From positions 1-35,990 of the forward strand of contig QHWJ01000226.1 of assembly GCA_003222535.1 (NCBI GenBank): DNA of 35,990 nucleotides. Reading direction: 5' to 3'. This DNA comes from Acidobacteriota bacterium. GTDB taxonomy: Bacteria > Acidobacteriota > Vicinamibacteria > Vicinamibacterales > CAVVIG01. The notes under the pieces were generated by a model that saw only the letters and a list, made by a program, of their open reading frames with translations, searched no databases and was not told the DNA's origin. The position numbers and the translations under genes were made by a program. Shown here in pieces: positions 6,811-20,090 of this stretch; position 1 is the first letter of the stretch, and each line of letters begins with the position of its first letter.

Positions 6811-7975
6811 ACATCGCCGATCGTCGATCGCCGATGTCGTCCGTGAACGCGGCCCGATGACGGTGGCCGCGTTCATGGATCTGGCGCTCTACGACGCCGA
6901 CTTCGGCTACTACGCCCGTGCGGCCCAGCGATCCGGCCGCGCGGGCGATTTTTTTACCAGCGTCGACGTCGGGCCCCTCTTCGGCGAGCTGCTGGAAATC
7001 CAGCTCGCTGAAATGAGCACCCTGACCGCGGAGGCCGCGGCGCACGCGCAGAAAGTCGAGTGCTCTGCTCCCTCTGCGGTCAGGAGCTTCGATCTCGTCG
7101 AAGCCGGCGCCGGCAATGGCCGTTTGTCCGCCGACATCCTGCGTGCGGCACGAGACCGCGATCCGGCTTTCTACGACTCGCTCCGCCTGCACCTCGTGGA
7201 GACCAGCGATGAAGCGCGGCGCGCGCAGGCCGACACGCTCGGCGACGTCGCCGGGCGCCTCGCGTCCTCGACCGATTCGCTTCCCGCGATGTTCCAGGGC
7301 GTCCTGGTCGCGAACGAGCTGCTCGACGCGCTCCCGGTCCACCAGGTTGTCATGCGCGCCGACGGGTTGAGGGAGGTGTACGTCGATTCCGCCCTACACC
7401 TGATCGAGGGACCGCTGTCAACACCGGCGCTCGGCGAGTACCTCGACCGGCTGGGCGTGTCCCTCGAGGCGGGGTGGCGCGTGGAAATCAACCTGCGTGC
7501 GGTTGACTGGATCCGTGACGCGGCGCGGCGACTCGAGCGCGGGTTCATCATCCTGATCGATTACGGCCACGAGGCGCGCGAGCTCTATTCGGCGGCGCAC
7601 GCGGACGGCACGCTGACGACGTTTTCGCGGCATCGCAGCAGGGGACCGGAGTCGGCGCCGGAGACGCCGGCGTGGCTGCGGCAGCCCGGCGACCAGGACC
7701 TCACCGCGCACGTCGACTTCACGAGCGTCAGAGCGGGCGCGGAGGCCGAGGGCCTGGCCACACTCGGATTCCTCGATCAGACGTACTTCCTCCTGGGACT
7801 CCTCCCGTCAGTCCTCAATCCGCAATCCGCCCGCAATCCGCAGTCCGCAATCCGCAATGTGAAGACGCTGGTGATGCCAGGGGGCCTCGGAAGCACCCAC
7901 AAAGTGTTGATTCTCGGCAAAGGCGTCGGCACGCCGGCGCTCCGCGGCTGCTCGTTCCGAGTGCGTGTCACTTGA
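6776..7975 (+). CDS. MidA-like SAM-dependent methyltransferase
   Basis: A 399-residue protein of the MidA/NDUFAF7 (DUF185) family, which methylates arginine in complex I subunits in mitochondria; bacterial substrates are unknown. The family start GPMTVAAFMDLALYDADFGYY (split here as residues 26-46) precedes the SAM loop VEAGAGNGRL (108-117). ANELLDALPV and IDYGHEA are further family landmarks. It overlaps the end of htrA by 35 bases in another frame. ATG 6857 is an alternative start but would cut into the domain. Near the C-terminus, about 13 residues encoded by a heptamer repeat (7815-7853) interrupt the variable region before KTLVMPGGLG. The last ~15 residues look non-homologous. Confidence 0.85.
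   Translation: MAKSSSPSRKTEHRRSSIADVVRERGPMTVAAFMDLALYDADFGYYARAAQRSGRAGDFFTSVDVGPLFGELLEIQLAEMSTLTAEAAAHAQKVECSAPSAVRSFDLVEAGAGNGRLSADILRAARDRDPAFYDSLRLHLVETSDEARRAQADTLGDVAGRLASSTDSLPAMFQGVLVANELLDALPVHQVVMRADGLREVYVDSALHLIEGPLSTPALGEYLDRLGVSLEAGWRVEINLRAVDWIRDAARRLERGFIILIDYGHEARELYSAAHADGTLTTFSRHRSRGPESAPETPAWLRQPGDQDLTAHVDFTSVRAGAEAEGLATLGFLDQTYFLLGLLPSVLNPQSARNPQSAIRNVKTLVMPGGLGSTHKVLILGKGVGTPALRGCSFRVRVT
7815..7853 (+). repeat. CAATCCG heptamer array inside the MidA-like gene
   Basis: Five heptamers (four CAATCCG, one CAGTCCG) with a CCCG interruption. The array is translated in frame as Asn-Pro-Gln-Ser and Arg-Asn units in a loop before the conserved C-terminal strand. It appears to be an insertion tolerated by the protein. 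Confidence 0.75.
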
Positions 7976-7979
7976 AAAA

Positions 7980-8015
7980 GACACAAAGGACACAAAGGGG
8001 ACAAAGGACACAAAG
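7980..8015 (+). repeat. 9-bp tandem repeat GACACAAAG
   Basis: Four consecutive 9-bp units, three identical and the third GGGACAAAG. It lies between the methyltransferase stop (7975) and the probable ATG of the next gene (8040). If translation began at GTG 7965 it would encode a Lys-Asp-Thr run, which is taken as evidence against that start. Confidence 0.75.
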
Positions 8016-9953: not shown

Positions 9954-10988
9954 ATGAACGAACAGCACACCGCCGACGGCGCCCAACTTCGCGAACGGAT
10001 CGACGGCTATCTGCGCGAAAGTGGACTCGCTGGGCGCGACGCGCGCGTGGTGCCGCTGACCGGCGACGCGTCGGACCGCCGGTACTTCCGGATCATCCCG
10101 GCCGACGGCCCGTCGATCGTGCTGGCACTGCACGCCGGGCCGATTGACTTCGCGTCGCTGCCGTTTGCGAGCGTGGGCGAATTGCTCCAGCAGGTCCCGC
10201 TGCCTGTGCCGGGGGTGCTCGGTCACTCGGACGAGCTCGGCATTCTGGCGTTGCAGGATCTCGGAGACGTGACGCTGCAGGCGCACCTGGGCGCCGCATC
10301 GGCCGAGGAGCATGCGGCGCTGTATCGGCAGGCCGTGGCCCTGATCGAGCTGCTGCAGCGGCGCGGGTCGGAATTGCGATCGGACCGCTATCCGCCGTAT
10401 CGGGTTGCGTTCGACATCGAGAAGTTGACGTGGGAGCTCCAGTTCTTCGCGAAGCACTTCGTCGAGGGCTATCGGGGTGTTGCGCTGGACGAAGCGGAGC
10501 GAGCGGCGCTCGCCGGGGAGTGGGCGGCGATCGTCGACGAGCTGTCGGGCGAGCCTCGCGTCCTGTGCCATCGCGACTATCACAGCCGCAACCTGATGCT
10601 GCGCGAAGGCAGCCTCTACATCATCGACTTTCAGGACGCGCGCATGGGACCCGACACCTACGATCTCGTGTCGCTGCTGCGTGATTCCTATGTCGACATC
10701 GCCGACCGCGAGCTCGACGAGCTCATCGCGTACTTCCTCGCGCTGAAACAAGGCAACGGCGCGGCGTTCTCCGCCGACGAATTCCGGCGCCGTTTCGATC
10801 TGATGGCCCTGCAGCGGAACCTGAAGGCGCTGGGCACGTTCGGCTACCAGACCATGACCCGCCGCAACCCGGTGTACATCCAGTACATGCCGCGCACGCT
10901 GCGGTACACGCGCACGAACCTCGAGAAGTACCCGCGCTTCGCGCGGCTCCGGGAGATCCTCGCGACACACGTCGAAGAGCTCTCGTAG
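9954..10988 (+). CDS. amgK: AmgK-like anomeric amino-sugar kinase
   Basis: A 344-residue aminoglycoside phosphotransferase-fold kinase. Landmarks are GDASDRRYFRI (P-loop-like N-lobe, about 41-52), ILALQDLGDVTLQAHL (hinge), the catalytic loop CHRDYHSRNLML with Asp near 206, and the metal motif IIDFQDARMGP followed by TYDLVSLLRDSY. The C-terminal ALQRNLKALGTF and IQYMPRTLRY segments match the AmgK family, which phosphorylates MurNAc and GlcNAc at the anomeric position, bypassing de novo UDP-sugar synthesis. The adjacent nucleotidyltransferase supplies the next step. The gene ends 10 bases before the 26-bp repeat array, which separates it from the convergent permease gene. Confidence 0.8.
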   Translation: MNEQHTADGAQLRERIDGYLRESGLAGRDARVVPLTGDASDRRYFRIIPADGPSIVLALHAGPIDFASLPFASVGELLQQVPLPVPGVLGHSDELGILALQDLGDVTLQAHLGAASAEEHAALYRQAVALIELLQRRGSELRSDRYPPYRVAFDIEKLTWELQFFAKHFVEGYRGVALDEAERAALAGEWAAIVDELSGEPRVLCHRDYHSRNLMLREGSLYIIDFQDARMGPDTYDLVSLLRDSYVDIADRELDELIAYFLALKQGNGAAFSADEFRRRFDLMALQRNLKALGTFGYQTMTRRNPVYIQYMPRTLRYTRTNLEKYPRFARLREILATHVEELS

Positions 10989-10998
10989 AGCCACGCAA

Positions 10999-11313
10999 TC
11001 GCTGGGTGTGAAAAGCACTCCACCGTGCTCGGCGTGAAAAGCCCTTCACCGTGCTGGGTGTGAACAGCACTCCACCGTGCTCGGCGTGAACAGCACTTCA
11101 CCGTGCTCGGTGTGAAAAGCACTCCACCGTGCTGGGCGTGACAAGCCCTTCACCGTGCTCGGCGTGAAAAGCACTCCACCGTGCTCGGCGTGAAAAGCAC
11201 TCCAACGTGCTGGGCGTGAAAAAGCTCCTTCACCGTGCTCGGTGTGAAAAAGCACCGCAACGTGCTGGGCGTGAACAGCACTTCACCCTGCTCGGCGTGG
11301 AAAAGCGCTCAAG
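10999..11313 (+). repeat. Left 26-bp tandem repeat array, 12 units
   Basis: Twelve head-to-tail units start at 10999, 11025, 11051, 11077, 11103, 11129, 11155, 11181, 11207, 11235, 11262 and 11288. The period is 26 bp, with one 28-bp and one 27-bp unit. The consensus begins GTGCTSGGYGTGAA and ends KCACC. AGCAC near the end of a unit can pair with GTGCT at the start of the next, so the array could fold into serial hairpins. It fills the whole gap between amgK and the convergent permease gene, with no unique spacers. The same unit recurs, mostly inverted, at 19938-20057. Confidence 0.9.
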
Positions 11314-11317
11314 CTCG

Positions 11318-11839
11318 TTACTCGGTTCCCAAGGCGAGCATCGGATCAATTGAAGCGGCGCGGTGTGCCGGCAGATACGTCGCCAGCCATGCCGCGGCGA
11401 CCATCACCGATACCGCGCACAGCAGAAGAAGCGGGTTTCCACCATCCACCCCGAACAACATTCCGCCGATGATTCGGCGTGCGGCGATCGATCCCGCGAG
11501 GCCAATGATCAAACCTGCGCCGACCAAGATCGCCGCCCGGCGCAGCACCATGGACAGTACTGCTGGTCGGCTCGCGCCGAGCGCGATGCGAATACCGATT
11601 TCGCGCGTCCGCTTGACGACGGCGTAGCTGAGGACGCCGTACAAACCGATCGACGTCAGCAGGAGGCCAATCGCCGCGAAGCTGACCATCAGCACTGTCA
11701 GGAATGTCACCGGCGTCACTCCAAGTGACAGAATCTGATCCCCCGTACGGACATCGAAGAGTGGCAGTTGGCGGTCGATCGACGAGACCACCGATCGGAC
11801 CGAGGACTCGAGCGAGGCTGGGGAGCCCGCAGCGCGCAC
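11318..11839 (-). pseudogene. ADOP permease 1, C-terminal fragment after frameshift
   Basis: This frame holds the end of the second periplasmic domain (RAAGSPASL, SIDRQLPLFDVRT) and the second FtsX-type membrane block. That block has three hydrophobic segments and the signature GVLSYAVVKRTREIGIRIALGA, ending AHRAASIDPMLALGTE. The frame stays open upstream of the nominal GTG 11839 and encodes YFPYRQLPWCCPSLIVRAAG, which is normal ADOP sequence. Translation cannot reach it from the N-terminal part, which stops at 11842. It is therefore best read as the separated 3' part of one broken gene. The stop codon is five bases from the left repeat array. Confidence 0.85.
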
Positions 11840-11841
11840 GA

Positions 11842-13875
11842 TCAGGGATGGACAGCACCACGGAAGCTGACGGTACGGGAAGTAGCGTCCGAAAGCGCGC
11901 CGGATCGAATCCTCTTTCCGACGGCGTTCTCGCCGGGAAAGAACTTGTCCGCGAAAGCGCGATTGACGGCCAGAACGGGGGGACCGGCGGAGTCGTCCTG
12001 ATCCGTGAATCCGCGGCCCTGCAACAGTGGAATGCCCGCCGTCTGAAAAAAGCCAGGGCTCACGATCGCGATGTTCGAACTCGGCCGCGCGGACCGCGGC
12101 GCCGGCCGGTCAGCGATGTCGAACCCCACCGTCATGCTGCTTCCGGTGAGCGGCAGCGGCATCGCGAGGGCAGCGGATCTCGCGCCGGGAAGTGTCCCAA
12201 GCCGTTCGAGCAGTTGACTGTAGAACGCGAGTTGGCGAGTCCTGGGATATTGCGCGCCCGGCACGCCAATGTTGAACGTCAGCAGTTTCTCCGGCCGGAA
12301 TCCGGGATCTCGGCGCGTCACGTGGACGAACCCTGCCATGAGGAGGCTGGCACCGCTGAGGAGCATCAAGCCAAGGGCAACCTGGACAACGACGAGCGCG
12401 CTTCCAACGCGACTGGCGCCATGGACGTTCCCGTAGGCACTTTCCTTCAAGGGATCGTTCAGCCGATCGTAGAGCAGCCGCGACGCAGGCGCGACACTGA
12501 AGAGCACAGACGTCACCAGCGTCACCGCCAGCGCAAATACCAGCACGCGCCCGTCGAGGCGCGTCTGCTCTATTCGTGGAATCGTCGTCCCGACCAGCGG
12601 AACGGCCAGTTCGACGAGTAGCCCCGCCATCGCCACGCCAGCGATGCCCCCGATCAAGGCCAGCGTCAAGCCTTCCGTCATCACCTGTCGGACAATCCGG
12701 GACCGCGCCGCACCGATCGCCAAGCGGAGTGCGAATTCCCGTTCGCGCTCGGCGGTGCGGCTCAATAGGAGGTTGGCCAGATTGGCGCAGGCCAGGAGGA
12801 GCACCAGGCCCACGGCGCCGAGCAGGAACAGCAGCGGACCTCGCGCGAGGCCCGACACGTCGCCCAGCGCGGACTGTAGAAATACGCCCGGATACCGCCG
12901 ATTCTCGTCGGGGTACCGCTGCGCGAGCGACGACGCGATGCGGTCCATCTGGGTCTGCGCTTGCTGAATCGACACGCCCTCGCGCAGCCGACCCATGACG
13001 CTCAACATGCGCGCACCACGCTGCTGGGTTACCGGCTGCACAGTGTCGGACCGGGCGTCGATGGCCAGCGTCGTCCAGACCTGAACCTGTTCACCGCCCA
13101 CGGGGAAATTGAATCCGGCCGGGGCGACGCCCACCACCAGGTACGGCTCGCGATCGAGGTTGATGGTCCGGCCGATGATTCCAACATCTCCGCCAAGCCT
13201 CGTTTTCCAGAGCGAATGACTGATGATGACTATCCGCGCACCAGGATCTTCGTCCTCGGGCCGAAACCCACGCCCAAGAGTCGGCTGAACCTTGAGCAGC
13301 GGAAAGAGATCCCAGGACACGATCTCGCCGCGCAACTGAACGGGCTCTCCGGACCCGGTGAGCGAGATCGGCGTGGCGCGATACGACACCAGGTGATCGA
13401 AAACGGTGTTCTCGTTTCGAAAGTCGAACAGGTTCGGATACGAGATGTCGTAAGGGCCCGCGGGGCCGGCATCACCCCGAGGCCATACCGACAGGAGCGT
13501 GTCTGGCGCAGGAAACGGAAGCGGCCGGAGCACGACGGCGTTCACCACGCTGAAGACGGCCGTGTTCGCGCCAATCCCAAGCGCCACCGTCAGTGCGCCC
13601 GCCGCGGCAAACGCCGGCGACTTTCGGAGCTGTCGAAGCGCGAAGCGCACGTCTGCCGACAAGTCTTCGATCCAGCGCCACTTCCAGACGTCACGTGCCT
13701 GTTCTTCGATCAACGTCACGTTCCCGAATTCACGGCGCGCTTGACGGACGGCATCCGCGGGCGCCACGCCGCGTGAGACGAGTTCTTCGATCCGTTCGTC
13801 CAGGTGGCCGCGAATCTCCTCCGACAGATCCGATTCGATTCGCCGCCGCGAGAACAATCGCTGGATCCAGGTCAT
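11842..13875 (-). pseudogene. ADOP permease 1, N-terminal part, truncated by a deletion/frameshift
   Basis: ATG 13875 begins MTWIQRLFSRRRIESDLSEE, the cytosolic helical head typical of PadR-linked ADOP permeases. ATGs at 13914 and 14001 are less likely starts. About 677 residues follow: TM1 (AAGALTVALGIGANTAVF), the first MacB-type periplasmic domain, an FtsX block with LLLACANLANLLLSR, a second TM, and most of the second periplasmic domain to VGKRIRSG. Normal ADOP sequence then needs about 25-30 more residues before PYRQLPW. Here they are missing and the frame shifts, giving a non-homologous tail and a stop. It follows intact ADOP 2 by 62 bases on the same strand and lacks its own PadR gene. 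Confidence 0.85.
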
Positions 13876-13937
13876 GGCTTCACCGGTGCCGGCAATTCCG
13901 ATCAACGTCTCCATGCTGACATGTCGATTCACTCCAT

Positions 13938-16628
13938 CTACTCGTACCGGAGAGCCTCCATCGCGTCGATCCGTGTCGCTCGTCGGATTGGCACGTAGCA
14001 CGCCGCCACACCGATCGCCACAAACAGCAATGTCGTCCCCGTGAAGGTGAGCGGGTCGATTGGCGGAATCCCGAACAGGAAGGCCGCAAGTACGTGGCTG
14101 GTGGCACCAGCGAGCGTCAAGCCCACACCGGCGCCGATGAGGGTGAGCGACAGACCTTCCTGCAAGACCATGCGCACGACATCGGTTCGTCGCGCGCCCA
14201 GTGCGATCCGGATGCCGATCTCACGTGTGCGACGCGCGACGGCATACGCCGTCACGCCATAGACGCCGATAGCGGCCAGCAAGAGCGCGACGATGCCGAG
14301 GCCGCCCGCTACGGATGCGACGACGCGCTGAGGCGCCAGGCCGAGGGCGATGGAGTCTTCGAGCGTCTGCGACGTCATGATGGGCACGTTCGGATTCATC
14401 GATGCCAGCAGCGCTCGGAGCTGGTCAGTGATGCGCCGTCCGGAGGTCGTCCGCGCGACAATCGTCAGGCTCGACACATACTGCTGCTGTAATGGCACAT
14501 ACGCGGACGCACGCGCTACGCCGTCAACGAGGCTGCTGGACTGCACGTCGCGCGCCACGCCGATGACGAGCAGCGGCTGCATCGGGTTTGTCGGCCCCTG
14601 CGGACCGTGCGTCGGCTGCGACAGGTACTTGCCGACCGCGTCCTGGCCTGGCCAGAACTGCCGCGCGGCCGACTCACTGACAACGACGACCGGCTGCGTT
14701 CCGGCGCGATCGTCGGGAGTGAAGTCTCGTCCGGCGCTGATCGGAGTCCGCAGTGTCGCAAAGAAGCCCGGCTCGACGACATTCCAATCCACCGTGAAAA
14801 AGCGTCCGTTCGGCGGCTGGACCCCTGGAACCGCCAGGGCTTCACGCCTGACTTCGAAGCCTCCGGGCACGCTGGTGGCCACCGTCACGCTCTGCACGTC
14901 CGACAGCTCGCGCACGCGATCGACCAGTTCGCGAGCGAAGAGCGGTCCCGTCGTCTTGGTGTATCCGGCCTGTGCCAGATCGAGCGACGCGAGCTCGACA
15001 CCGCGCGGATCGAAGCCCGGATCGATTGACGCAGCCCGCTGCAACGCGCGCAGAAACAAGCCGGCGCTGATGATGAGCACGATACTGATCGCCACCTGGC
15101 CGATGACGAATGCGTGGCGAAGGCGTAGCCGGCCGGCGAGCCCTGGATCATTTCGTAGCCCAGACAGGACATCCGCTTTCGACGCCTGAAGCGCGGGTGC
15201 GAGTCCGGACAGGAGCGCAGCCAGCAGCGAGAGACCGACGGTATATGCGATCACGCGACCATCGAGGGTGAGCGACAGATCCACGGGAAACGGCAGCGTC
15301 GGTAGCAACGAGACGAGAACAGACACCATCCCCCTGGCGAGCAACAGACCCACCGTTCCCCCAAGCACGAACAGGAGCACCGTTTCCGTGAGCAACTGTC
15401 GAACGAGCCGTGCGCGTCCGGCGCCAATTGCGAGGCGCAACGCCATCTCCTGTCGCCGGGCAGCCCCGCGCGCAAGCAGTACGCCGGCGACGTTCGCGCA
15501 CGCGACGATCAGCACCAAAGACACGATGACGATGAGTAGCGCGAGGAACGCGACCATCGGTCCGCCATTTCCGGGTACGGGCGACGAGGCCATCAACCGC
15601 AACCCCGTGCCTCGATTCTGTTCGGGATACGCGCGCTCGAGGGTCCGACCGATCACGTCCATCTCGGCGGCAGCCTGCGACACCGACAGATCCGGTTTCA
15701 AACGGCCGCCGATCAACAACCAGTGAGCCGCGCGGTCCGTAAGCGTCGCCGCCGCTTGGGCCGTGACGGCCGCCGCCATGTTCATCGGCACCCACACATC
15801 CACCGCACGCACGCCCGTCCCATGGAATCCCTCAGAGGCCACGCCGACCACCGTGAATGGATGGCCGTTGAGCATCACCGCCCGGCCAAGGAGGGTGGGA
15901 TCGGTGTTGAAATGTCGAGTCCAGAACCGGTGACTCAACACCACCACTGGACTCGCCCCAGGGTGGTCGCTATCGGCCCTTCCGAACAGGCGTCCGGCGG
16001 CTGGTATTGCGCCGAGCACGGTGAAGTAGTTAATCGTGACAACACTGCCGAATACGCTTTCCGTCCCGACATCGGTGCCCACGCCTCCGAGACTCATCGC
16101 CTGAGGAAACCGCGAATACGCGTATACCCCGTCGAGGCTCGTGGTCCGCTCGCGGATATCGAGATAATTCGGATACGAGCTGGGGCCGAAGCCACCACGA
16201 AGCCCGCTGGTGCCGATGTCAACGAGACGGTCCGGTTCGACCACGCCCGCCGGAGGTTGGAAGAGCAGCGCGTTCGCCACCGTGAAGATCGTGGTGTTGG
16301 CGCTGATGCCAAGGGCGAGCGAGAGCGCGGCAGTCGCGGTAAAGAGGCGATCACGTCGAAGCAGCCGCCCGGCGTGTCGGAGATCCCGCCTCGCATCGTC
16401 GAGCCAGCGGAACGACCTCGCGTCCCGGTGCAACTCCTTGGTTTGTTCGACACCGTTGAACGCGCGCGTTGCGGCCAGCCTGGCTTCTTCTGGCGACATA
16501 CCGCGCCGCCGGAAGTCATCTTCCAAGAGGGTCAGGTGCGACGTCAGCTCACGCGCGAGGTCCGGTTCTGCGCGACCAGGACGGAGCGCATTCGCCAGCC
16601 TGAGGAAGAACCGCCTCAGAGATGCCAC
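13938..16628 (-). CDS. ADOP-type MacB/FtsX-like ABC permease, intact
   Basis: An 896-residue duplicated permease. Residues 1-90 form a charged helical cytosolic head (PDLARELTSHL, MSPEEARLAATRAFNGVE). TM1 lies at about 96-118. A MacB-type periplasmic domain runs to about 345. An FtsX block contains VACANVAGVLLARGAARRQE. A second TM and periplasmic domain follow, then a final FtsX block with GVTAYAVARRTREIGIRIALGARR, ending RIDAMEALRYE. ADOP proteins lack an encoded ATPase partner nearby; their substrate is unknown, and mechanotransmission or efflux is inferred from MacB. The GTG start lies one base after the PadR stop, so the two are coupled. It is the only complete permease of the three here. 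Confidence 0.9.
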   Translation of the reverse strand: MASLRRFFLRLANALRPGRAEPDLARELTSHLTLLEDDFRRRGMSPEEARLAATRAFNGVEQTKELHRDARSFRWLDDARRDLRHAGRLLRRDRLFTATAALSLALGISANTTIFTVANALLFQPPAGVVEPDRLVDIGTSGLRGGFGPSSYPNYLDIRERTTSLDGVYAYSRFPQAMSLGGVGTDVGTESVFGSVVTINYFTVLGAIPAAGRLFGRADSDHPGASPVVVLSHRFWTRHFNTDPTLLGRAVMLNGHPFTVVGVASEGFHGTGVRAVDVWVPMNMAAAVTAQAAATLTDRAAHWLLIGGRLKPDLSVSQAAAEMDVIGRTLERAYPEQNRGTGLRLMASSPVPGNGGPMVAFLALLIVIVSLVLIVACANVAGVLLARGAARRQEMALRLAIGAGRARLVRQLLTETVLLFVLGGTVGLLLARGMVSVLVSLLPTLPFPVDLSLTLDGRVIAYTVGLSLLAALLSGLAPALQASKADVLSGLRNDPGLAGRLRLRHAFVIGQVAISIVLIISAGLFLRALQRAASIDPGFDPRGVELASLDLAQAGYTKTTGPLFARELVDRVRELSDVQSVTVATSVPGGFEVRREALAVPGVQPPNGRFFTVDWNVVEPGFFATLRTPISAGRDFTPDDRAGTQPVVVVSESAARQFWPGQDAVGKYLSQPTHGPQGPTNPMQPLLVIGVARDVQSSSLVDGVARASAYVPLQQQYVSSLTIVARTTSGRRITDQLRALLASMNPNVPIMTSQTLEDSIALGLAPQRVVASVAGGLGIVALLLAAIGVYGVTAYAVARRTREIGIRIALGARRTDVVRMVLQEGLSLTLIGAGVGLTLAGATSHVLAAFLFGIPPIDPLTFTGTTLLFVAIGVAACYVPIRRATRIDAMEALRYE

Positions 16629-16629
16629 G

Positions 16630-16977
16630 TCAGCCCTCGTTCAACAAGAGCTTGTCCACCAGGCCGGCAAGCCGCCGCCAGCGCTCGGTTTGCTTTTCGA
16701 GGCCGCGCACGCCGGCTTTGGTCACGCTGTAGTACTTGGCCTCGCGGTTCGTTTCGGTTCGCTGCCAAGCACCCTTGATCCAGCCCTTCTGCTCCAGGCG
16801 GACGAGCGCCGGATACAGCGTCCCTTGATTCAGCCTGAGCGAGGGTTCGGCGACCTGCTCCAGGCGTGCCGCGAGGCCGTAGGCGTGTTGGGGTCCCATC
16901 GTGTCCAACGCCCGCAGGACGATGAGATCCAGCGTTCCCTGCAGCAGCTCGACACGATCTGTCGATTCACTTGCCAT
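16630..16977 (-). CDS. PadR family transcriptional regulator
   Basis: A 115-residue winged-helix repressor from ATG 16977; a start at 17016 would add 13 unsupported residues. The family core is visible: LLQGTLDLIVLRALDTMGPQHAYGLA (helices 1-2), LNQGTLYPALVRLEQKGWI (recognition helix and wing), then EAKYYSVTKAG and a C-terminal dimerisation helix. The next gene, ADOP permease 2, begins one base after the stop, so this is a regulator-permease operon and the likely target is its own promoter. Paired TTGACA elements lie about 45-60 bases upstream. Confidence 0.9.
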   Translation of the reverse strand: MASESTDRVELLQGTLDLIVLRALDTMGPQHAYGLAARLEQVAEPSLRLNQGTLYPALVRLEQKGWIKGAWQRTETNREAKYYSVTKAGVRGLEKQTERWRRLAGLVDKLLLNEG

Positions 16978-17021
16978 CCCAGTGGTCTCCAGGCGCGAGG
17001 CTACTCGCCGTTGCACTGGCT

Positions 17022-17151: not shown

Positions 17152-18942
17152 CTATTCGAACCTGAGCGCCTCCATCGCGTCGATTTGTGTCGCGCGTCGA
17201 GCAGGCACGAAACACGGAGACCCGTGAGTGGGAGGTGCAAACGACAGCGATCGCCAGAATTCTCGCCGCGTCGCTTGGAGAGTTGTGATGGCGTGGTTCA
17301 ACCGCATGGCTGGCGGGCTGCGCGCGCTGTTCCACAGACGCAGCGCCAAGGACGAGCTCGAGAACGAGCTGCGCGCGTACCTGTATGCCGTGCGTTGAGC
17401 AGCGGTGTAGGCGGTGACACCGTAGATGCCGATCGCCGCCAGTAAGAGGCCAACGAGCCCAACGCTTCCGGCGACGGAGGCGGCGATCCGAAGCTGCACG
17501 TACACCGGACCTGTTGCGGAGTCGAGCGGCTGCGGCGTCAACATTGGGAGGTTTGGATCCATCGATCGAACCAAGTTGCGAATCGCCGACGCGATCTGCT
17601 GGTCGCCGCGAGTTCGCGCAAGGAGCGTAAAGCGGGGCGTGTACCGCTGTTGAATGGGCACGTACATCATCAAGGTTGACGGTGGGATGGCGATTATCTG
17701 CTGGCCATCGGCACGGACGTGCGTCACGCGATCGGGGGCACCTCCCGCGGCGGCGCCGGTCGGCGGTCGCAGGTCGCGAGCCACGCCGATCACCTGCAAT
17801 CGGGTCGTCGCGTCTTCGCCGCTCGGGCGCAGATCATGCCAGTCAATGATCTTGCCGATTGGATCTCGTCCCGGCCAGAAATACCGTGCCGCAGTTTCAT
17901 TCAGGATGACGACGGGCTTCGCGTCCAGCCGGTCAGCGGCGCTGAAACCGCGTCCAGCCAGAAGGGGGATCCGCAGTGTTCTGAAGTAATCGGCGTCCAC
18001 AGCGCTCCACGTGCCAATGAAATACGGATCTCCGTTCGCGGGGAAGGTGCCCGGGACGGTAACGTTGACATCTCTTCCCCCGCGGCCGGGCATAAACTCC
18101 GCTAGCGTGGCCGCTTCTACTCCGGGCATGGCCCGAGTGCGCTCGACGAGATCGCGCGCGAAGCTGGCGCCGGCCGCGGGTGGGTATCCGGCGCTGGACA
18201 GGTCAAGCGACGCGGTTTCGACCTGACGCGGATCGAAGCCGAGATCGATTGTGCTGATTCGCGTGAGCGCCTTCACAAGCAGGCCAGCGACGATCACCAG
18301 CACGATGCTAAATGCCACCTGCGCCACCACGAACGTACTGCGGGCGCGCGCCCGTCCAGAGAACCCCTGCGACTCGTCCTTCAGACCCGACACCACGTCA
18401 GCCTTCGACACGTGCACCGCCGGCGCGAGGCCCGATAGCAAGGCGGCAACGAGAGAGAGTCCGGTCGTGAACGCGATCACTCGCCCATCCAGCGGAAGCG
18501 ACACGTCGATCGGAAGCGTAAAGGCTGGCAGAGCGGAAAGGAGGAGCGATGTCATCCAGCGTGCCAACATCAGTCCAGCCGCACCTCCGAGAAGAAACAA
18601 CAGCATCGTCTCGGTGAGGAGCTGTCGAATGACCCGCGCGCGTCCCGCACCAATCGCCATTCGTACGGCAATCTCGCGACGCCGCGCGACCGCGCGCGCG
18701 AGCAGGACGCCCGCGACGTTCGCGGACGCAATGACCAGGACGACCAAAACCAGCGCCAGGAGCAGCGCGAAAAAACCAGCCGCGACAGTCGCCAGGGCCC
18801 CCGGCACGGAAGAGAGAGCCGCCACCCGCAGTCGTGCCCCGCGATCGGCCTGGGGATGCTCACGCTCGAGTTCCCGCGCGATAACGTCGAGCTCTGCCCC
18901 TGCCTGATCAATCGACGCGCCCGGCTTCAGCTGACCTCCCAT
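17152..18942 (-). pseudogene. ADOP permease 3, C-terminal part, disrupted twice
   Basis: This open frame carries the end of the first periplasmic domain (GGQLKPGASIDQAGAELDVI), the first FtsX block (ASANVAGVLLARAVARRREIAVRMAIGAG), the second TM, the second periplasmic domain (PVVILNETAARYFWPG) and the start of the last FtsX block (GIYGVTAYTAAQRTA). After that, the expected REIGIRIALGA segment and its two membrane helices are replaced by about 60 unrelated residues encoded by inverted DNA (about 17215-17390). The correct ending VPARRATQIDAMEALRFE then resumes in frame. Its 5' end is cut off from the N-terminal fragment at 18908-19450 by a deletion and frame change. Confidence 0.85.
17215..17390 (+). 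pseudogene. Inverted remnant of another PadR-ADOP gene pair
   Basis: Read on the plus strand, 17217-17288 encodes ETREWEVQTTAIARILAASL and stops. This matches the C-terminus of PadR regulators paired with ADOP genes (compare ETSEWNRIALAMARALEAS in the PadR at 19472). An ATG overlaps that stop by one base (17286-17290) and opens MAWFNRMAGGLRALFHRR, then ELENELRAYL, the typical ADOP head. Homology ends near 17390. The fragment is therefore the join of a PadR 3' end and an ADOP 5' end, in opposite orientation to the host gene, with sequence unlike either resident pair. Confidence 0.7.
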
Positions 18943-19450
18943 TCCAACGCCGGCGGGCCTCCGGCTCGTCAGACGCGACGTAGGGGTACGACGTGGTGAA
19001 GTTGTAAGGAAACGCCTTGCCCTCTTCCGCTCGGGAGATGTCGACGAGGCGGTCCGGCTGGCTCACGCCCGCTGGTGCGCGGAACAGCAGGGCATTGGCG
19101 ATGGTGAAGATCGTCGTGTTTGCGGCGATGCCGATCGCGAGTGAGAGGGTTGCCGTGACCGCAAAGACCGGATTTCGTTGAAGCAGGCGCGCTCCGTACC
19201 GCAAGTCTTTCAGCACGGTGTCCGCGAAGGCACCGGCTCGTATATCGCGAACCTGTTCCTTCACCACCTCGACTCGCCCCATTTCCAGCGTCACGACACG
19301 ACGCGCATCGTCAGGTTGCATGCCTGCGGCGATCTTTTCATCGACGACCAGAGCGAACGTGGCACGGACCTCTTCGTCGAGGTCGCGGTCAATGCGATCC
19401 CGGTGGACGAGGTTGCGCCAAAGGCTGAACACGCGATGCATCAGCGGCAT
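18908..19450 (-). pseudogene. ADOP permease 3, N-terminal fragment
   Basis: ATG 19450 starts MPLMHRVFSLWRNLVHRDRIDRD (written here only as the usual charged head), followed by MQPDDARRVVTLEMG, TM1 (AVTATLSLAIGIAANTTIFTIANALLF) and APAGVSQPDRLVDIS. After TTSYPYVASD the expected ~170-200 residues of the first periplasmic domain are absent. The frame leaves homology and stops at 18908, overlapping the start of the downstream frame by 35 bases. It lies 21 bases after the PadR gene at 19472-19804, as in other PadR-ADOP operons. Confidence 0.85.
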
Positions 19451-19471: not shown

Positions 19472-19804
19472 CTACGACGCCTCAAGTGCCCGAGCCATCG
19501 CGAGGGCGATTCGATTCCACTCCGAGGTCTCGTCGCTCAGCCGTTTCCGACCCGCTCTGGTAAGCGCGTAGTACTTCGCACGACGATTGTTCTCGGACGG
19601 CTGCCACGTCGAGGCGAGCCAGCCGGCTTCTTCGAGGCGATGTAACGCGGGGAATAACGATCCAGGTCGAACAACGAACGTACCCCTCGTGATCTGCTCG
19701 ATTCGGCGAGAGACGCCGAGACCGTGCAGTTCGCCGGTGGCGAGCGCCTTGAGGATCAACAGGTCGAGGGTCCCTTGAAGCAATGCTGTGCCGCGTTTGG
19801 CCAT
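19472..19804 (-). CDS. PadR family transcriptional regulator
   Basis: A 110-residue winged-helix protein. LLQGTLDLLILKALATGELHG opens the DNA-binding domain (motif split at 20). PGSLFPALHRLEEAGWL is the recognition helix and wing, and RRAKYYALTRAGRKRL plus the final helix form the dimer interface. It is intact although the permease it precedes is broken, so any regulatory function may now be orphaned or directed elsewhere. Two near-identical 18-bp sequences upstream (19817-19834 and 19856-19873) are good operator candidates. ATG 19804 is the only convincing start. Confidence 0.9.
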   Translation of the reverse strand: MAKRGTALLQGTLDLLILKALATGELHGLGVSRRIEQITRGTFVVRPGSLFPALHRLEEAGWLASTWQPSENNRRAKYYALTRAGRKRLSDETSEWNRIALAMARALEAS

Positions 19805-19873: not shown

Positions 19874-19937
19874 CGAAGGTGGGAGGAAGCTGGGATCAAA
19901 GCGAGTAGCAGGAACCACCGTTTCGCTTGGACTTCAC

Positions 19938-20057
19938 TGTGAAAAGCACTTCACCGTGCTCGGCGTGGTGATGCGCGCCAAGCACCCTGGAGTGCTGTTC
20001 ACACCGAGCACCCTGGAGTGTTGTTCACACCAAGCACCCTGGAGTGCTGTTCATGCC
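19938..20057 (-). repeat. Right 26-bp repeat array, mostly inverted relative to the left array
   Basis: One unit in the same orientation as the left array occupies about 19938-19967. It is followed by three units in the opposite orientation at 19980-20005, 20006-20031 and 20032-20057, each starting RAGCACCCTGGAGTG and ending TTCACACC or close to it, plus a partial unit to 20064. Reverse-complemented, these match the left consensus with CCAGGGTG in place of CCACCGTG. The array lies between divergent genes, in contrast to the left array between convergent genes. Confidence 0.85.
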
Positions 20058-20090
20058 CAAGCACAGTCGTGGGTCGCTACAGTAGAATAG

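Follow-up and report, generated by a model that had tools for sequence, protein, structure and literature searches.

A captured, inverted fragment of another PadR-ADOP gene pair in a decaying ADOP permease gene of an acidobacterium

Near its 3' end, the minus-strand gene ADOP 3 of an Acidobacteriota genome carries a short stretch in which PadR and ADOP sequence is read on the opposite strand. What is this stretch, what did it take the place of, and how did it come to be there? We addressed these questions in a window of 35,990 nucleotides (the whole stretch of DNA that was analysed; contig QHWJ01000226.1 of assembly GCA_003222535.1), which holds a cluster of three ADOP genes. ADOP 2 (13938-16628, minus strand) is an intact neighbour with 817 bits to the ADOP family TIGR03434, and it serves as a reference for the stretch missing from ADOP 3. 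Its partner, PadR 2, lies at 16630-17016 on the minus strand (116 bits to TIGR03433, padR_acidobact). The partner of ADOP 3, PadR 3 (19472-19804, minus strand), has an intact frame and scores 133.6 bits against TIGR03433, which is over the cut-off.

The plus strand at 17217-17388 reads as the end of a PadR gene, an overlapping TGATG and then the first 34 or so codons of an ADOP permease gene, in inverted orientation relative to ADOP 3. The last 23 PadR codons and the stop (17217-17288) encode ETREWEVQTTAIARILAASLGEL, and this reading overlaps through TGATG with MAWFNRMAGGLRALFHRRSAKDELENELRAYLYAVR. The ADOP start (17288-17388, beginning MAWFNRMAGGLRALFHRRSAKDELENELRAYL) falls in the permease prefix region. 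Both blastn and tblastn align the piece to PadR-ADOP junctions in four genomes. In a DNA search of 162 genomes of the order, the matching junctions were those of the MAG Luteitalea sp. Dino_bin50 (G160; 76% over 167 bp, E 8.9e-28), Acidobacteria gp6 AA36 (G068; 70% over 174 bp, E 7.2e-16) and G146 (69% over 161 bp, E 8.0e-10). These best three alignments have a common start at 17217 and ends at 17377-17390. In all three genomes, and in G049, which gave a weaker match, the next gene after an open PadR frame is an ADOP of about 900 residues. The real insert scores 120 bits against the Luteitalea locus, and no shuffled insert exceeds 30 bits.

At the protein level the PadR tail is 88% identical to that of the Luteitalea pair, a figure obtained with a 24-residue query to which one leading Arg had been added. 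The 25-residue PadR tail does not match TIGR03433, for which it is probably too short, and its homology comes from the DNA instead. Similarly, the ADOP start has a weak match to NCBIfam perm_prefix_1 (E 0.006, under the cut-off) along with DNA homology throughout its length. When the ADOP and PadR proteins were used in tblastn, exactly one opposite-strand block, 17217-17389, was found in the whole ADOP stretch of the window. Thus, the strong plus-strand similarity bears out the original prediction that a PadR end, TGATG and an ADOP start lie here on the opposite strand. Its size of about 176 bases is corrected to 172-174 bp.

The host gene continues on both sides of the fragment, as had been predicted. 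On the minus strand, homology between ADOP 3 and intact ADOPs extends as far as base 17389 and resumes at base 17216. The C-terminal part up to the right junction (17389-18942) matches TIGR03434 over profile positions 219-708 with 462 bits, and the 3' end (17152-17216), which encodes CFVPARRATQIDAMEALRFE and a stop, matches the end of ADOP 2 with 80% DNA identity and aligns as protein to intact ADOPs. The open frame at 17152-18942 takes in the insert read backwards: the C-terminal part ends in GVTAYTAAQRT, which is followed by 58 residues with no ADOP similarity and then by the 3' end. Between the conserved RT and C[YF]xP there are 75 codons in intact ADOPs (ADOP 2 among them) and 58 in ADOP 3, and none of the 58 is homologous to the 75 of the relatives. 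The sequence that the insert gives to ADOP 3 is absent from the intact homologues, which have REIGxR... there instead.

If the borders are placed at 17216/17217 and 17388/17389, 172 bases have taken the place of about 223 in the host gene, the ancestral ADOP 3 being taken from homologues at approximately 50-59% protein identity. The net change is -51 bases and the local frame is kept. A host segment is thus missing and another segment is in its place. This agrees with the claim that DNA was replaced rather than simply inserted; the claimed loss of about 70 host residues is confirmed as a loss, and amounts to about 75 codons. The event left ADOP 3 without most of the C-terminal (second) FtsX membrane domain, and in P0001 a single FtsX domain is found by Pfam. 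The 462 bits fall short of the TIGR03434 cut-off of 622.3 for the gene read as one protein. ADOP 3 is an ADOP-derived pseudogene and not an intact member of the family. Though host gene and fragment both derive from PadR-ADOP pairs of the kind described by TIGR03434 and TIGR03433, here the host is a pseudogene and the fragment is a mere junction of another pair.

The original prediction had proposed that the junctions be defined for microhomology, and this could be done to the extent that relatives allow. At the left border, the base before GAGACC (17216) is C, T or G in donor relatives and host relatives have C at 17217, leaving 0-1 nucleotide shared. At the right border, the host sequence CGTGCG resumes at 17389, the bases that precede it are unlike those of host relatives, and the donor may share at most about 4 nucleotides. 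Judged in this way, through donor relatives at about 76% identity and through host relatives, the junctions look blunt or nearly so. No extended microhomology with the donor is seen at both borders when the donor relatives are used, and by the same comparison the junctions have no long homology. Terminal inverted repeats and mobile element ends were looked for at the fragment borders and none was found. A mobile element or site-specific recombination was considered and set aside, the borders being free of repeats.

ADOP 3 is also broken elsewhere. Blastp to intact homologues and frame analysis place its N-terminal part in a different frame (18908-19450, minus strand). An out-of-frame deletion of about 0.4 kb lies at about 18.94-18.98 kb, and homologue residues of approximately 172-306 are absent from ADOP 3. 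This second, independent lesion, on which the original prediction is silent, shows that ADOP 3 was free to decay. Weight had been placed on the frame staying open across the insert. This is of little meaning in a gene that has a break at another place, and at 64% GC an antisense frame is often open. We also rejected the open frame as evidence of selection: when the insert is shuffled, any one frame has no stop in 25% of the shuffles, and a frameshift lies upstream in ADOP 3.

Where the fragment came from can be narrowed down. The assembly (8.06 Mb, 95.5% complete, 450 contigs) has 27 PadR and 71 ADOP matches. None of these is a donor copy, nor did searches by DNA, by protein and at all PadR loci yield one. 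Outside this genome, the donor PadR tail motif occurs in 14 genomes of the order; the 26 genomes of the same family that were searched (G001-G026) lack it. The original prediction had suggested a search for the donor pair in this or in sister genomes; the own genome has none, and the clade of the pair is found elsewhere in the order. In the class and phylum samples, no donor closer than the Luteitalea and gp6 AA36 pairs was found, and one exact degenerate pattern run against a collection of 84,980 genomes recovered only these same two pairs. No donor was found on plasmids, and none was found in viral contigs with one exact degenerate pattern. The fragment is probably foreign, with its source in a different lineage of the order, or it stems from a pair that has since been lost. 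A foreign or long-lost donor is favoured, weakly, because the clade is absent from the assembly and from the 26 genomes of the same family. The absence from these relatives is itself weak evidence, since, even elsewhere in the order, only about 10% of genomes have the clade.

We consider it rather probable that the locus is a mutational scar in a decaying gene, in which host DNA was lost and a piece of another PadR-ADOP pair was captured through break repair. A break or gap would have arisen in ADOP 3, and in its healing the host segment would have been lost and the piece of a different pair captured. The piece would have been joined backwards with little or no matching of ends, in the manner of Ku-type end joining or of double illegitimate recombination. 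With these processes, joins are blunt or nearly so, host bases are lost and the orientation is random. Two Ku genes, both over the cut-off, are present in the genome, and end joining is therefore possible. Against this reading, no LigD was found beside either gene among the ORFs scanned in the Ku neighbourhoods. The captured fragment presumably has no function of its own. The neighbourhood of the second Ku gene, L093 (G000:C448:13500-23000), also encodes a Y2-type transposase whose N-terminal domain is of the phage-integrase type (6834-8015).

We file the event as a known kind, segment replacement by illegitimate recombination. Replacement of short segments in this way has been reported to be common in bacterial genomes and to account for much of their short variable segments, as a main source of these (PMC2884548). 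As in those microdiversity loci, a short unrelated segment here replaces a host segment without a mobile element or long end homology, and the permease host fits the report that such replacements are particularly abundant in membrane-protein genes. In contrast to those loci, the incoming piece is traceable to one particular gene junction, has an inverted orientation and sits in a pseudogene, and the present case comes from a single genome. Double illegitimate recombination has been described in transformable bacteria (Hulter and Wackernagel 2008, as cited in PMC13344027). It likewise joins a foreign fragment at both ends without long homology, but in the present case there is no evidence of transformation.

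What also speaks against capture by break repair is the kinship of the two parts. By an estimate from the ADOP matches, ADOP genes make up about 2% of the genome, and a random fragment would rarely be of the same family as its host, unless a reader notices only familiar fragments. That donor and recipient share a family is striking, yet it cannot be weighed, because readers do notice familiar fragments. The kinship would follow from switching of the template during replication, either mediated by microhomology or through short-patch pairing of single-stranded DNA. In such an event, the piece would have been copied from an ADOP pair of the own genome that has since been lost or was not assembled. 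ADOPs are numerous in this genome, so that donor and recipient would come from the same gene family, and at its level of completeness the donor could be missing from the assembly. The assembly as it stands has no donor, however, the borders share 0-1 and at most about 4 bases, and the donor clade is carried by none of the family relatives. We regard template switching as unlikely, though it deserves some weight. Natural transformation with homology-facilitated illegitimate recombination, in which one end is anchored in ADOP sequence and the other joined without homology, appears less likely again and is at best doubtful. A ComEC-type competence protein is encoded in the genome, and such events are described in transformable bacteria (PMC2884548 and PMC3240628). 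ComEC-like genes are, however, present in 10 of 14 control genomes. Furthermore, the tail at 17152-17216 and the upstream part both resemble the homologue L059_11795, and no foreign anchor segment is seen.

Events in more than one step are also conceivable. A larger inverted PadR-ADOP segment might have been inserted into ADOP 3, with later deletions trimming both segment and host down to the present 172 bp. The second deletion in ADOP 3 shows that deletions do occur there. This scheme needs several events where a single replacement accounts for the borders, and no further donor remnant is found in the region, which makes it very unlikely. We give even less credence to a chimera in the assembly of a metagenome-assembled or draft genome. 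Though the genome is in 450 contigs and the insert has no other copy in the assembly, the host flanks on both sides are unique and host DNA is replaced at both borders, unlike in a simple chimeric join; the donor sequence is also nowhere else in the assembly to be mis-joined. The preferred reading remains capture of the fragment during repair of a break.

We also asked whether the event recurs. A scan covered 14 other ADOP/PadR regions of the genome, most of them picked because their ADOP matches are partial or atypical. It recovers 17217-17389 in ADOP 3 but, in the 14 regions, detects no ADOP gene that contains a strong PadR/ADOP block on the opposite strand. One stronger match, L110:81-502 (56 bits), lies around and in front of the PadR of its locus and looks like a neighbouring ADOP end. 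There is only a slim chance that the present inverted replacement is one product of a recurrent, family-biased and non-homologous process by which acidobacterial ADOP families exchange short segments between divergent paralogues. The locus is a compact and well-bounded case of non-homologous segment replacement, and a gene-to-gene junction reveals what the inserted piece derives from. It shows that this large paralogous permease family can decay via gross rearrangement, besides point changes. It would gain greater importance only if such exchanges prove frequent.

Other parts of the cluster show changes as well. ADOP 1 (11321-14001) is broken too, with its C-terminal part in another frame (11321-12109) and a short stretch apparently missing at about 11.9 kb. 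Damage is therefore present in two of the three ADOPs of the window; in the rest of the genome, the open frame is complete for most ADOP matches. At 10975-11303 and at 19916-20059 there are tandem repeats of a 26-base unit (AGCACTCCACCGTGCTCGGCGTGAAA), which contains a short palindrome. In its exact degenerate form the unit is absent from the other loci searched. At least 8 copies lie on one side of the three-ADOP cluster, and the other side has a shorter and mostly inverted set.
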